A stretch of 64,000 nt of DNA. It comes from Desulfovibrio ferrophilus (GTDB lineage Bacteria; Desulfobacterota; Desulfovibrionia; Desulfovibrionales; Desulfovibrionaceae). Made by a program: the position numbers and the translations under genes. The stretch is taken from contig NZ_AP017378.1 in the NCBI RefSeq assembly GCF_003966735.1, positions 2,252,905 to 2,316,904 on the forward strand. The letters run 5' to 3'. The notes beneath the pieces are model-generated. The model searched no databases. It saw nothing but the letters and a program-made list of their open reading frames with translations, and was not told where the DNA came from. This document shows positions 21,018 to 25,337 of this stretch, piece after piece. The number at the start of each line of letters is the position of its first letter. Positions within the stretch are counted from its first letter, which is position 1.

Positions 21018-23360
21018 ATGAGAGACCAGAAGCAGAACAGATCGACATTCGGTGAACAGCGCCAGGGCCAACGCCCGAAATCAGGCAGCGACGATCTTCG
21101 CTATCGCGCCGTCTTTGCTCATATGGCTAGCGCCTTGGCTATCTGGGTCCCTTCCGACGACAACACCGATTTCATTCTGCGGGACATGAACCCCGCCTCC
21201 GAACGCCTCAACAGAATCAAACGCGAACAGGTCCTCGGCCATACACTCTCCGAGATATTGCCCAATGCGGAAAGCATCGGACTGCCCAGTGCCATCCATA
21301 GAGCCCTGAGCACCGGGGAGACCATCCACCTGCCGGCTCAACTGTACCAGGACGACAAACGATCCGGTTGGCGCAAGTACACTATTTTCGCATTGCCCTC
21401 CGGTGAAATTGTCACACTGATAGACGACGTCACCGAACGCAAACAGGCTGAGCTCAAGATGCGGGAGAACCTGGAGTTGTTCTCTCATATCTTCGAAGAC
21501 GCCTTCATGACCATGCTGCTCATCGACCCGATGACAGGAAATATCGTGGAGGCCAACACCAAGGCCTGTGAGTTTTATGGCTATAGTCGTAGCAAGCTCA
21601 AAACACTAAACATTTCAGATATCAACACTCTACCAACAGAAGAACTCAAGCATCGTCTAACGCAAGTCCACACTCAAAAGCAGAACCTCTACAATTTCAA
21701 GCACCGACTTGCATCCGGCGAGGTACGCGAGGTTGAAGTCCACTCCGGGCCAGTCAAGATACTGGATCAGGAACTTCTGTTCTCCATCATCCACGACGTC
21801 ACCGAGCGCAAACAGGCCAACGAAGCCCTGCGCCAGAGCGAAGCCGCACTTCGCAGCCTCATTCGATCCGCCCCTGTGGGTATCGGAGAAGTACGCGATC
21901 GCATCATCGGACAGGTCAACGACCACCTCTGCAGTCTGACCGGCTACTCGCCCGAAGAACTGAAAGGCCAAAGTGCACGCATCCTTTACCCCGATGAAGA
22001 AGAATTTTTAAGGGTCGCACGCATCAAGCATCCTCAGGTGCAACTCACGGGGCATGGCTCTCTGGAAACCATTTTCAGATGCAAGGACGGAGAACGACGC
22101 AATGTCATCCTCTCCTCATCCTGGAAAGATGATCAGCACCAGGACACTGGCATGATATTCACGGCTCTGGACATCACGGAGCGAAAAGAGGCCGAACGGG
22201 AACTGCGCAAGGCCCGTCGTGACCTGCATAATATCATCGATGCCATGCCCTCGGCCGTCTTCTGTGTTGACCTGCAAGGCAGAATCGTACTCTGGAACAG
22301 TGACGCCGCCCGATTGGCATGCAGCGACAATCTTGAAAACCGCCCTCTCACCAGTTCAGTCTCCGGCCTTTCCGAATTCGATGCCATGTTGCAGGAGACC
22401 ATCCGAACCCGCGAGCCCATCTCCTGTAAGGCTCTGCCTATGGAAAGGGATGGCAAGCTCACCTTCTGGGACATGCTGCTCTATCCCCTGCCCGAAGGCG
22501 GCACCGATGGCGCGGCAGTCCGTCTGGACGAGGTCACCGATCGCATCCATCTTGAAGAAATCATGATCCAGTCCGAGAAAATGCTCTCCCTGGGAGGGCT
22601 TGCTGCAGGCATGGCCCATGAAATCAACAATCCATTGGGCGGTATCCTTCAGGGTGCACAAAATATCATTCGCCGATTCGATTCTACACTGCCCGCCAAC
22701 GTCAATGCCGCCGAAGAACTGGGGTTGTCGCTGGAGGCCATGCGGGAATACATGAGCCGCCGCAGTATTTTCAATATGCTGTCTGGGATCAGAGACTCTG
22801 GAGAACGGGCGGCACAGATTGTCGCCAACATGCTCGACTTCAGCCGCACCAGCAATTCACGCCGGGCGCTCGTCGATATCACCGATTGCATCGAGAAGAC
22901 GCTGGATCTTGCGGCCAATGACTATGACCTCAAGAAAAAATACGACTTCAGAGATATCGAAATCGTACGTGATTTTGAAGAATTACCGCCTGTTCCCTGC
23001 ACGGAGACTGAAATACAACAGGTGCTGCTCAATCTACTGGTTAATGCGGCCCACGCAATGGCACCGTCATCCGACCATCCCGCCCCAAAACTCATTCTGC
23101 GCATCAGACGCAAGTCAGCACTGGCGATGATCAGTGTTGAAGACAATGGGACAGGGATCGATCCTGCGCACAAAAATCGAATCTTCGAACCGTTTTATAC
23201 CACCAAGGACCCCGGCGAGGGCACAGGGCTAGGCCTTTCCGTGGCCTACTTCATCATCACCCGCAACCACCGGGGCACGATTTCCGTGGACTCCGCTCCA
23301 GGACAGGGAGCCCGCTTCACCATCACCCTGCCTTTGAAAACCGACGAATTCGGAACATAA
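21018..23360 (+). CDS. Multi-PAS sensor histidine kinase
   Basis: A 780-residue kinase with no membrane segment, so it senses in the cytoplasm or through partners. Four PAS/PAC modules occupy ~28-510; the repeated phrase DVTERKQA or DITERKEAE marks their ends. The dimerisation/phosphoacceptor domain has GMAHEINNPLGG with His near residue 534. The HATPase domain carries LLNLLVNAAHAM (N box), VEDNGTGI (G1) and GTGLGLSVAYFI (G2). There is no receiver domain and no adjacent response-regulator gene, so the partner is unknown. Confidence 0.92.
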   Translation: MRDQKQNRSTFGEQRQGQRPKSGSDDLRYRAVFAHMASALAIWVPSDDNTDFILRDMNPASERLNRIKREQVLGHTLSEILPNAESIGLPSAIHRALSTGETIHLPAQLYQDDKRSGWRKYTIFALPSGEIVTLIDDVTERKQAELKMRENLELFSHIFEDAFMTMLLIDPMTGNIVEANTKACEFYGYSRSKLKTLNISDINTLPTEELKHRLTQVHTQKQNLYNFKHRLASGEVREVEVHSGPVKILDQELLFSIIHDVTERKQANEALRQSEAALRSLIRSAPVGIGEVRDRIIGQVNDHLCSLTGYSPEELKGQSARILYPDEEEFLRVARIKHPQVQLTGHGSLETIFRCKDGERRNVILSSSWKDDQHQDTGMIFTALDITERKEAERELRKARRDLHNIIDAMPSAVFCVDLQGRIVLWNSDAARLACSDNLENRPLTSSVSGLSEFDAMLQETIRTREPISCKALPMERDGKLTFWDMLLYPLPEGGTDGAAVRLDEVTDRIHLEEIMIQSEKMLSLGGLAAGMAHEINNPLGGILQGAQNIIRRFDSTLPANVNAAEELGLSLEAMREYMSRRSIFNMLSGIRDSGERAAQIVANMLDFSRTSNSRRALVDITDCIEKTLDLAANDYDLKKKYDFRDIEIVRDFEELPPVPCTETEIQQVLLNLLVNAAHAMAPSSDHPAPKLILRIRRKSALAMISVEDNGTGIDPAHKNRIFEPFYTTKDPGEGTGLGLSVAYFIITRNHRGTISVDSAPGQGARFTITLPLKTDEFGT

Positions 23361-23363
23361 AAA

Positions 23364-23390
23364 AAAGCGCCGCAAGGCGCTTTATTCATA
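23364..23390. terminator. Bidirectional terminator between the histidine kinase and small-protein genes
   Basis: AAAGCGCC-gcaa-GGCGCTTT, with A-rich sequence on the left and TTTATTC on the right. It works for both convergent transcripts. Confidence 0.8.
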
Positions 23391-23408: not shown

Positions 23409-23843
23409 TCAGGAACGGACCTTGGATTTCGCCAAAGACAATTCAGCAGATGTAATCACATCCATCATCACCAGAATCTCGCCCAGATCATAAGGACTTT
23501 GGGAATCATCCTTGAACTTCTCAGCCTTGTCGAGATCGGCCTGGGAAATAATCTTGGAGGTCAGCAAAAAGTCCTCGGGGGTCTCAAAATCATCACCGCC
23601 CAACGAAGGCGCCCCACTCCGCGCGCTCATCACAGACACACGCTCACGGACCAATTCATCCTCTTCTTCCTTCAAACGATCCCGCTCGGCGGTCTTGTCT
23701 TCAATCATCACTACGATCCGGGCAATTTCCTGACGCAGACGGAGTGCCTCGTCCCCGTAGGCCTTGGTCATCCTGATGTAGAGCACGGGCGATGCCAACA
23801 ACACCAACCCGAGGATAAGATAGATATAGATGGTCATTGTCAT
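23409..23843 (-). CDS. Small membrane-anchored coiled-coil protein, type A (copy 1)
   Basis: A 144-residue protein of unknown function. One N-terminal membrane segment (~4-24) is followed by a heptad-rich coiled coil (~28-75) and a C-terminal helical pair with the phrase LGEILVMMDVITSAELSLAKSK. That phrase resembles the half-repeat of MshEN (GspE/PilB N-terminal) domains. It is a close paralogue of the protein at 24443-24883. I start at 23843, where GAGGTG lies 8 bp upstream; the longer reading would overlap the preceding gene. It is the second gene of a two-gene cassette. Confidence 0.8.
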   Translation of the reverse strand: MTMTIYIYLILGLVLLASPVLYIRMTKAYGDEALRLRQEIARIVVMIEDKTAERDRLKEEEDELVRERVSVMSARSGAPSLGGDDFETPEDFLLTSKIISQADLDKAEKFKDDSQSPYDLGEILVMMDVITSAELSLAKSKVRS

Positions 23844-23859
23844 TGGGCATTCACCTCGT

Positions 23860-24306
23860 TCACAATACTTCCTGAGTGGCAATTTCCATGTCTTCAGGCG
23901 AAACAATTCCCAAAATGACCAACGCTTCTTCAACACTGGACCCGCTCTTGGTTTCCTCAAGATGTGCGGTCACACGCAGCAGGTCACTGTCGGTCACCTT
24001 ACCCATGGACATGAGGACACCCACAATATCCTGCCGGGGAGCATCGCTCTGGGCTGCAGCCTTTTTCTCCTGCTCAATAGCCACGCGCAGAGCCTGAACA
24101 TCCTTGCGGATCAGGTCCACCCGGCCCTGCCTGAGCAGGACATCCTTCTGAATGGACAGGAGATCCTTCTCCAAGCCCTTCAAATCGCCCAGCATACCGC
24201 GAATTTCATGGTTCAGCTTACGGCGCTTGTTCAACACAAGTCCACCCAACACAATGAAATACGCAAGCAGAATAACGCACACCAGTGCTACGGTCTGTAT
24301 ATCCAC
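23860..24306 (-). CDS. Small membrane-anchored coiled-coil protein, type B (copy 1)
   Basis: A 148-residue protein of unknown function. A membrane segment (~6-26) is followed by a coiled coil (~30-85) and a C-terminal domain with two similar halves: DIVGVLMSMGKVTDSDLLRV and SVEEALVILGIVSPEDMEIA. It is paralogous to 24894-25337. It is the first gene of the cassette, 16 bp before its type-A partner, so the two products probably associate. Confidence 0.78.
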   Translation of the reverse strand: MDIQTVALVCVILLAYFIVLGGLVLNKRRKLNHEIRGMLGDLKGLEKDLLSIQKDVLLRQGRVDLIRKDVQALRVAIEQEKKAAAQSDAPRQDIVGVLMSMGKVTDSDLLRVTAHLEETKSGSSVEEALVILGIVSPEDMEIATQEVL

Positions 24307-24397
24307 TTACGGCCTCTCATAATTGACAAGTCTTACCAGAAAATACGCAAAGTGACGATACAAGGCAATCGACATTCAAGTCGTCTGTTCTCAGGCA

Positions 24398-24420
24398 CAA
24401 AAAAAGCGCCCCAAGGCGCC
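24398..24420 (-). terminator. Terminator after the upstream cassette of small membrane proteins
   Basis: On the minus strand GGCGCC-ttgg-GGCGCT is followed by seven T residues. It separates the two duplicated cassettes into two transcripts. Confidence 0.75.
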
Positions 24421-24442
24421 CCGCGCAACGGCCATGCCTTCC

Positions 24443-24883
24443 TCAGTCTCTGACCTTGGACTTGGCAAAAGACAATTCAGCTGGCGAGATCGTATCCATC
24501 ATCACGAGAATCTCACCCAAATTATATGGACTTTTCGAACCCTGTTTGAACTTTTGGGCCTTTTGGATGTCCTCGGCCGTGATCGTACCCACTGACAGCA
24601 GATACGCCTCCGGGTTCTTGTACTTTCGCCCTCCGGCGCTCCCCAGCGTTGGCAACGAAGGATCAACTTCGATTAACGACAACTTCTGCTTGTTCAACTC
24701 ATCCTCCTGAGCCACAAGCCCGGCCACCTCGAAATCCAATTCCTCCTTGGTCACCGTCAATTGCGCAACCTGATGTTCCAGGCGCCGGACCTCATCGGCA
24801 TAGGCTCTGGTCATACGGCAATAATACACGGGGCAGGTCACGAGCAGAATCAGCCCAATAATAGAAAGGTAGACCATCATCAT
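24443..24883 (-). CDS. Small membrane-anchored coiled-coil protein, type A (copy 2)
   Basis: A 146-residue paralogue of 23409-23843 with the same plan: membrane segment (~5-23), coiled coil (~28-70), then paired helical repeats AYLLSVGTITAEDIQKAQKF and LGEILVMMDTISPAELSFAK. The ATG at 24883 has GAGGA 7-8 bp upstream. The last ~25 residues are nearly identical in the two copies, while the linker before them differs. Function unknown. Confidence 0.8.
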   Translation of the reverse strand: MMMVYLSIIGLILLVTCPVYYCRMTRAYADEVRRLEHQVAQLTVTKEELDFEVAGLVAQEDELNKQKLSLIEVDPSLPTLGSAGGRKYKNPEAYLLSVGTITAEDIQKAQKFKQGSKSPYNLGEILVMMDTISPAELSFAKSKVRD

Positions 24884-24893
24884 GCCGATATCC

Positions 24894-25337
24894 TCACATG
24901 GCCTCTTGGGCTGCGCTGTCCATATCCTCAGGACGCACAAGCCCCAGAATCATCAAGGCTTCTTCGACCGTTGAACCGCTCTTGGTATTTTCCAGATAAG
25001 TTCTGGCGCGCAGCACATCCTCGGCCGTGATCTTGCCCATGTACTGCAACGCTTCAACGATGGTTCGGCTGGGGACATCACCAGCTGCGGCGGCAGCGCG
25101 CTCCCGTTCCTTGGCAAGCTCCAGACTCTCGATCTCCTTTTCAAGATTGGAGACCCGAACCTCTCGGATCAGCATATCCGCCTTGAGATCCTTGATCCCG
25201 TTTTCAAGATCAAAGCTCTGATGACGCAATGAACGGATGACACGCAAGTAATTGGTACGGACGTTACGAACGATACCCCCAAAGACAAGGGCAAATATCA
25301 ATAACACGACACATGCGAGAACAGCGGTAAGTATCAT
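24894..25337 (-). CDS. Small membrane-anchored coiled-coil protein, type B (copy 2)
   Basis: A 147-residue paralogue of 23860-24306: membrane segment (~5-23), coiled coil (~28-80), then the tandem halves TIVEALQYMGKITAEDVLRA and TVEEALMILGLVRPEDMDSA. GGGGGA lies just upstream of the ATG. It is followed 10 bp later by its type-A partner. The B-A order and spacing are the same in both cassettes, which points to duplication of the whole pair. Confidence 0.78.
   Translation of the reverse strand: MILTAVLACVVLLIFALVFGGIVRNVRTNYLRVIRSLRHQSFDLENGIKDLKADMLIREVRVSNLEKEIESLELAKERERAAAAAGDVPSRTIVEALQYMGKITAEDVLRARTYLENTKSGSTVEEALMILGLVRPEDMDSAAQEAM

Follow-up and report, generated by a model that had tools for sequence, protein, structure and literature searches.

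Paired membrane-anchored coiled-coil proteins with predicted MshEN_N-type heads in Desulfovibrionales and their possible link to the flagellum

Four small genes for membrane-anchored coiled-coil proteins lie at positions 23409-25337 of the window, the whole 64,000-nucleotide stretch of Desulfovibrio ferrophilus DNA analysed here, and they raise the question of what family they belong to and what their C-terminal heads might bind. The initial annotation described a duplicated two-gene cassette whose ~145-residue products each carry one membrane helix, a coiled coil and a pair of helical half-repeats. Our analysis bore this out: two A-B operons stand in tandem on the minus strand, A1/A2 and B1/B2 are each ~45% identical, and all four products (144-148 aa) have this architecture. 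The pairs had been written as B-A; the pairing stands, but the order does not, because by transcription (A1, B1, A2, B2) each cassette runs A then B. The features are as follows.

24894-25337, minus strand: A1, 147 aa, membrane helix, coiled coil and MshEN_N-like head (open reading frame, signs of purifying selection, AlphaFold model, head comparison with MshE; values below)
24897-25073, minus strand: A1 head, ~residues 89-147, predicted four-helix MshEN_N-like domain
24443-24883, minus strand: B1, 146 aa, membrane helix, coiled coil and MshEN_N-like head (open reading frame, AlphaFold model, head comparison with MshE; values below)
24446-24622, minus strand: B1 head, ~residues 88-146
24403-24422, minus strand: terminator-like GC-rich hairpin and T run, 3' of B1 (cassette 1)
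23860-24306, minus strand: A2, 148 aa, GTG start, A1 paralogue (open reading frame, dN/dS, tree)
23863-24039, minus strand: A2 head, ~residues 90-148 (alignment with A1; NF053729 match at 97-141)
23409-23843, minus strand: B2, 144 aa, B1 paralogue (open reading frame, dN/dS, tree)
23412-23588, minus strand: B2 head, ~residues 86-144 (NF053729 match at 91-136; alignment)
23364-23383, minus strand: terminator-like GC-rich hairpin and T run, 3' of B2 (cassette 2)

The genes of a cassette are separated by 10 bases (A1-B1) or 16 bases (A2-B2), and B1 has three adjacent ATGs as candidate start codons. The two cassette-end hairpins are near copies of each other, and over the whole region terminator-like sites are not in excess (3 vs 2.3 in shuffles). 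In a related genome (G001; JAHIUW010000036.1, L090), all four genes were found flanked by the same neighbours, with dN/dS values of 0.16 (A1), 0.17 (B1), 0.15 (A2) and 0.10 (B2), indicating that all four are under purifying selection. The same four genes in the same place with low dN/dS argue that the genes are real. In this orthologue comparison the coil was less conserved than the head and the membrane segments. The upstream genes in the window, named by eye from sequence, are glcD, smpB and ptsI. On the other side, the cassettes had been noted to adjoin a large PAS histidine kinase, and the position is correct: the gene at 21018-23360 on the plus strand has PAS, HisKA and HATPase domains (Pfam) and occupies the same place in G001. 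However, it is convergent with B2 across the second terminator hairpin, outside the operon, and the syntenic g49 locus has no kinase, an EamA-like gene lying directly next there. The kinase was thus ruled out as a component and is probably outside the system.

One N-terminal hydrophobic helix was present in 52/53 family members by a simple hydropathy scan, and the mean number of Lys/Arg was 3.5 in the 15 residues after it vs 0.02 before. By the positive-inside rule, this charge after the helix predicts a cytoplasmic location for both coil and C-terminus. AlphaFold models (mean pLDDT 87 for A1 and 78 for B1, each from an alignment of 9 sequences) showed a single helix to residue 86 (A1) or 72 (B1), followed by a short-long-short-long four-helix bundle. 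FtsB/DivIC and MotE-like proteins are likewise short and single-span with a coiled coil, an architecture that the family shares. However, none of the four proteins matched MgtE_N or DivIC (PF04977) in Pfam, although the true FtsB of L054 scored 1.1e-15 with the latter; the head has another fold and the coil is predicted to be cytoplasmic.

The C-termini had been likened to MshEN, with structure prediction named as the check; run for A1 and B1, it returned the MshEN_N fold and not an unrelated one. The head has ~58 residues in four helices, built as two tandem 24-residue half-repeats, as in the MshEN_N domain of V. cholerae MshE and the GSPII domains of T. thermophilus PilF. With Foldseek, A1 was best matched by GSPII-B structures of Thermus PilF (rmsd 1.6-1.7 across ~55 columns, probability reaching 0.99), with E-values of only 0.3-0.9, probably because the long helix diluted the query; GSPII-B and MshE were matched likewise by B1. 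VIA-align to MshE gave Z 9.7 for A1 (rmsd 1.7, 58 residues) and 9.4 for B1, against ~5-7 for unrelated rows, though for helical bundles a Z below ~13 may carry little weight, which made sequence evidence important. A head-only profile of 28 relatives matched PilF in the PDB at 2.6e-9, and each of its top nine PDB rows was a pilus or type II ATPase aligned over the N-domain (PilF, MshE, PilF GSPII-A, PilB, XpsE). Furthermore, NF053729, the NCBIfam model of an MshE-related c-di-GMP motif, matched B1 and B2 at 2e-4 and was common over the head among relatives (12/18, E up to 0.1, all under the cut-off); its scores of 21.2 (B2), 21.1 (B1) and 15.2 bits (A2) stay below the cut-off of 38, and no match was listed for A1. 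The A and B heads are homologous to each other (30% over 43 residues). PilF GSPII-C could also be aligned with the family head and has a 7-residue linker between half-repeats; the linker is 7-8 residues in most members and 5 in the g7-type and some others, as in MshE. The likeness to MshEN exceeds what chance would give, and we consider the MshEN_N fold predicted with good support from models and sequence.

Only the MshEN_N half is present, since the proteins end after four helices without the alpha/beta MshEN_C (ND1). PF05157 did not match the four proteins and gave two hits in the whole genome, both elsewhere. This Pfam model appears to cover the alpha/beta MshEN_C half, as its window-genome hits also look, and its silence is therefore uninformative on the head; presumably for the same reason, hhalign of the heads against those hits did not succeed. 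The T2SSE ATPase domain (PF00437) was not matched either, the proteins being only 144-148 aa. Compared with MshE and PilF, the family heads thus lack the c-di-GMP residues, the MshEN_C half and the ATPase, and are fused to a membrane helix and a coiled coil. The initial annotation had recognised no characterised family, and none emerged convincingly from Pfam, PADLOC or PHROGs.

A 33-member profile (E 1e-6) found the family in 88/247 genomes sampled from the sulfate-reducing order Desulfovibrionales, in 19/51 genera. A phylum-wide set of 148 genomes, drawn mostly from other orders, gave nothing beyond partial matches to coil or head once the window genome is set aside, and a search with one degenerate pattern found no viral relatives. 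Typically, two neighbouring genes encode membrane coiled-coil proteins of which one or both carry a head, and such units occur at several unrelated loci. In families f2-f4 the head is on the first gene and the second encodes a short headless partner; in g4, g7, g13, g47 and the second pair of g49 the headless gene comes first; both genes bear heads in the window genus and in the first pair of g49. Every pair inspected has at least one head, as found with head-bearing profiles that could miss headless pairs. Two adjacent short headless membrane coiled-coil genes in G186 (L120 5252-5744) may be a headless cassette or a chance coil similarity. In genus g21, a protein of 716-792 aa is encoded directly upstream of the head-bearing member (L053 3756-5906, L061 6480-8858, L063 6500-8665); it combines a single membrane segment at the N-terminus with a short coil and with a long tail, acidic and of low complexity, that ends FIVPE/YIVPE; it had no Pfam match in the two scanned, and may replace the usual small partner.

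In the tree, the four A proteins of the window genus formed one group, to which the g49 A was sister (92/90), and the four B proteins another, with the g49 B as its sister (99/96). These groupings are most simply read as duplication of the whole cassette in the window genus, later than its divergence from g49 but earlier than that of the two species sampled within it. That the whole cassette was duplicated together argues for the pair as the working unit. Tandem cassettes in genus g4 (L111 6046-7623) and two nearby head genes in another genome (G145:C78:7179-8446) seem to be independent of the window duplication.

The surroundings of the cassette, with gene names given by eye unless Pfam was run, differ among lineages. 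For example, it lies in an rsmI-cobD-ptsI-smpB-glcD locus in g1 and g49, beside an ABC-F gene with the leu operon in g4, and at pgsA-pilT-pilU-ftsB-TPR / lipoprotein-FBPase-tsaD in f2-f4. In g7 (L085 2726-5511, L087 2735-5508) it is divergent from genes for a REC-DUF3369-HD-GYP protein and a REC-DUF3369 histidine kinase (Pfam, L085). In g21, g39 and a Halodesulfovibrio locus (L091), a member sits directly upstream of fliM; in this subfamily it is 134-296 bases upstream on the same strand in 8/8 loci measured, besides L091. That no secretion or pilus genes adjoin the cassettes holds for those in the window. The window organism does have a PilT locus (L103), and no cassette is in it; PilT-locus adjacency is therefore weak evidence, and we rejected it as a functional link. 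The same pgsA-pilT-pilU-ftsB-TPR-FBPase-tsaD locus, widely conserved in Desulfovibrionales, also encodes an unannotated lipoprotein-like protein of ~250 aa (L103 7210-8019; L054 6790-7539), whose L054 copy had no Pfam match.

What, then, would the heads bind? The c-di-GMP motif of MshEN is RLGxx(LVI)(LVI)xxG(LVI)(LVI)xxxxLxxxLxxQ, present twice with a 5-residue linker (PMC5013675). Among 49 head-bearing members, motif I kept Arg-1 in 1, Gly-3 in 0 and Gln-24 in 1, and at Leu-21 both motifs mostly have Lys, Glu or Arg; by contrast, most members retain the hydrophobic core at positions 6 and 12 as well as Ala-20, and about half retain Gly-10. Of the 12 key ligand residues, the window proteins keep 0-4 (A1 0, B2 4), with a maximum of 6 in any of the 49, so the degeneracy pointed out earlier for the window proteins extends to all the relatives examined. 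A role as receptors of c-di-GMP, or another dinucleotide, sensing a second messenger at the membrane could draw on the shared fold of the binding site, on the Leu-2, Gly-3 and Leu-17 of motif II that survive in B heads, and on the HD-GYP phosphodiesterase genes adjoining the cassette in g7 and close to it at some f2 loci. However, binding is abolished by fewer changes than these in PilF GSPII-A, a natural non-binder (PMC12002112), and is held to be so in XpsE, another natural non-binder whose motif is lost (PMC5013675). Judged from residues, the heads probably do not bind c-di-GMP, and we regard the receptor reading as very unlikely. With those residues gone, a protein is the most likely ligand. 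The X. citri PilB ND0 and the XpsE N-domain have the same fold with the ligand motif likewise lost (PMC8389850, PMC5013675), and the ND0-ND1 domain of this PilB binds PilZ, chiefly via ND1 (PMC8389850). ND0, which by its lost motif counts as a further natural non-binder, sets a precedent for a motif-less MshEN_N as part of a domain that docks a protein, though it does not prove that the family heads dock one; unlike the family head, which is C-terminal on a membrane protein, both are N-termini of soluble hexameric ATPases.

The kind of protein partner was approached through co-occurrence across genomes, a check proposed for the pair at the outset, in the same 247 Desulfovibrionales genomes (88 family-positive, 159 negative). 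The family, usually as a two-gene cassette, tracked fliM (88/88 positives vs 131/159 negatives, p=2.8e-6), and more weakly flhA (86/88 vs 141/159, p=0.013), and did not track the ATPases scored, those of the PF05157 (GspE/PilB) type (52/88 vs 90/159, p=0.79); these Fisher counts take related genomes as independent, and the flagellar hypothesis was formed after seeing the data. Family and fliM also covaried within three genera, g53 (2 with both, 5 with neither), g23 (4, 2) and g25 (1, 1), with a within-genus exact p=0.0016, where the count of neither takes in G059 and G094 with their weak partial fliM match. All eight genomes with neither also lack flhA and keep PF05157 ATPases. The converse fails, as most flagellated Desulfovibrionales sampled are without the family, which thus behaves as an accessory kept only where a flagellum is present. 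Against a flagellar reading, the window cassettes have no flagellar gene nearby, and no family member lies upstream of fliM in the window genome. Docking to or regulation of type IV pilus or type II secretion ATPases (PilB, PilT, GspE) by mimicry of their N-domains would fit the head homology, which is to exactly those domains, and the f2-f4 locus with its two PilT-like ATPase genes. Yet there the cassette is oriented opposite to the flanking genes, the PilT locus of the window organism has none, and neither the PF05157 counts nor the eight flagellum-less genomes show the expected association; we hold this explanation to be improbable. Somewhat better placed, though still unlikely, is a general envelope or cell-pole/division scaffold without a specific flagellar role, the fliM correlation then coming from genome reduction or relatedness. 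It agrees with neighbourhoods that vary by genus, with ftsB, leu, glcD-smpB and FBPase genes among them, and with an architecture reminiscent of FtsB/FtsL, and small genomes are common among the flagellum-less relatives, several of which are small or incomplete MAGs. However, cassette and fliM are both retained in the 1.8-Mb genomes G079 and G091 and both missing from G085, a 2.8-Mb genome of the same genus, and the charge pattern predicts a cytoplasmic coil, unlike the periplasmic one of FtsB-type proteins.

Computation supports gene reality, paired genes, the topology signal, the MshEN_N fold, the loss of ligand residues, the family spread and the fliM co-occurrence. Our preferred reading, which we put at slightly below an even chance, is that A and B are an accessory inner-membrane adaptor pair whose partner would probably be a component or regulator of flagellar motor or placement. 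Each cassette would produce two single-span inner-membrane proteins, A likely pairing with B via the cytoplasmic coiled coils, and together they would present four-helix heads of the MshEN_N type on the cytoplasmic side of the membrane. These heads would likely serve as a membrane-tethered adaptor docking a protein, with about even chances that this is a part or regulator of the flagellar motor or its placement. Many flagellated relatives would do without such an accessory, and the two diverged cassettes of the window would yield two such adaptors, related to each other but differing in their partners or conditions.

In open-access literature (PMC; subscription papers fall outside it), no paper brings together the MshEN domain and Desulfovibrio, or the GSPII domain and coiled coils anchored in a membrane, and papers combining MshEN, flagellar motor and coiled-coil had other subjects by title and abstract. 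The family is real, its building block is a fold already known, and within the reach of the searches it has not been described before. So far MshEN_N has been known mostly for sensing c-di-GMP in pilus and secretion ATPases and in fused regulators; a bare MshEN_N without ligand residues, heading paired membrane coiled coils, would be a fold recruited away from nucleotide sensing. More tentatively still than the adaptor role itself, the Desulfovibrionales may possess an order-wide and hitherto undescribed class of flagellum-linked inner-membrane adaptors, in which MshEN_N moved onto paired membrane coiled coils and its ligand pocket became a protein-docking surface. The flagellar co-occurrence gives this uncharacterised family a concrete motility hypothesis.
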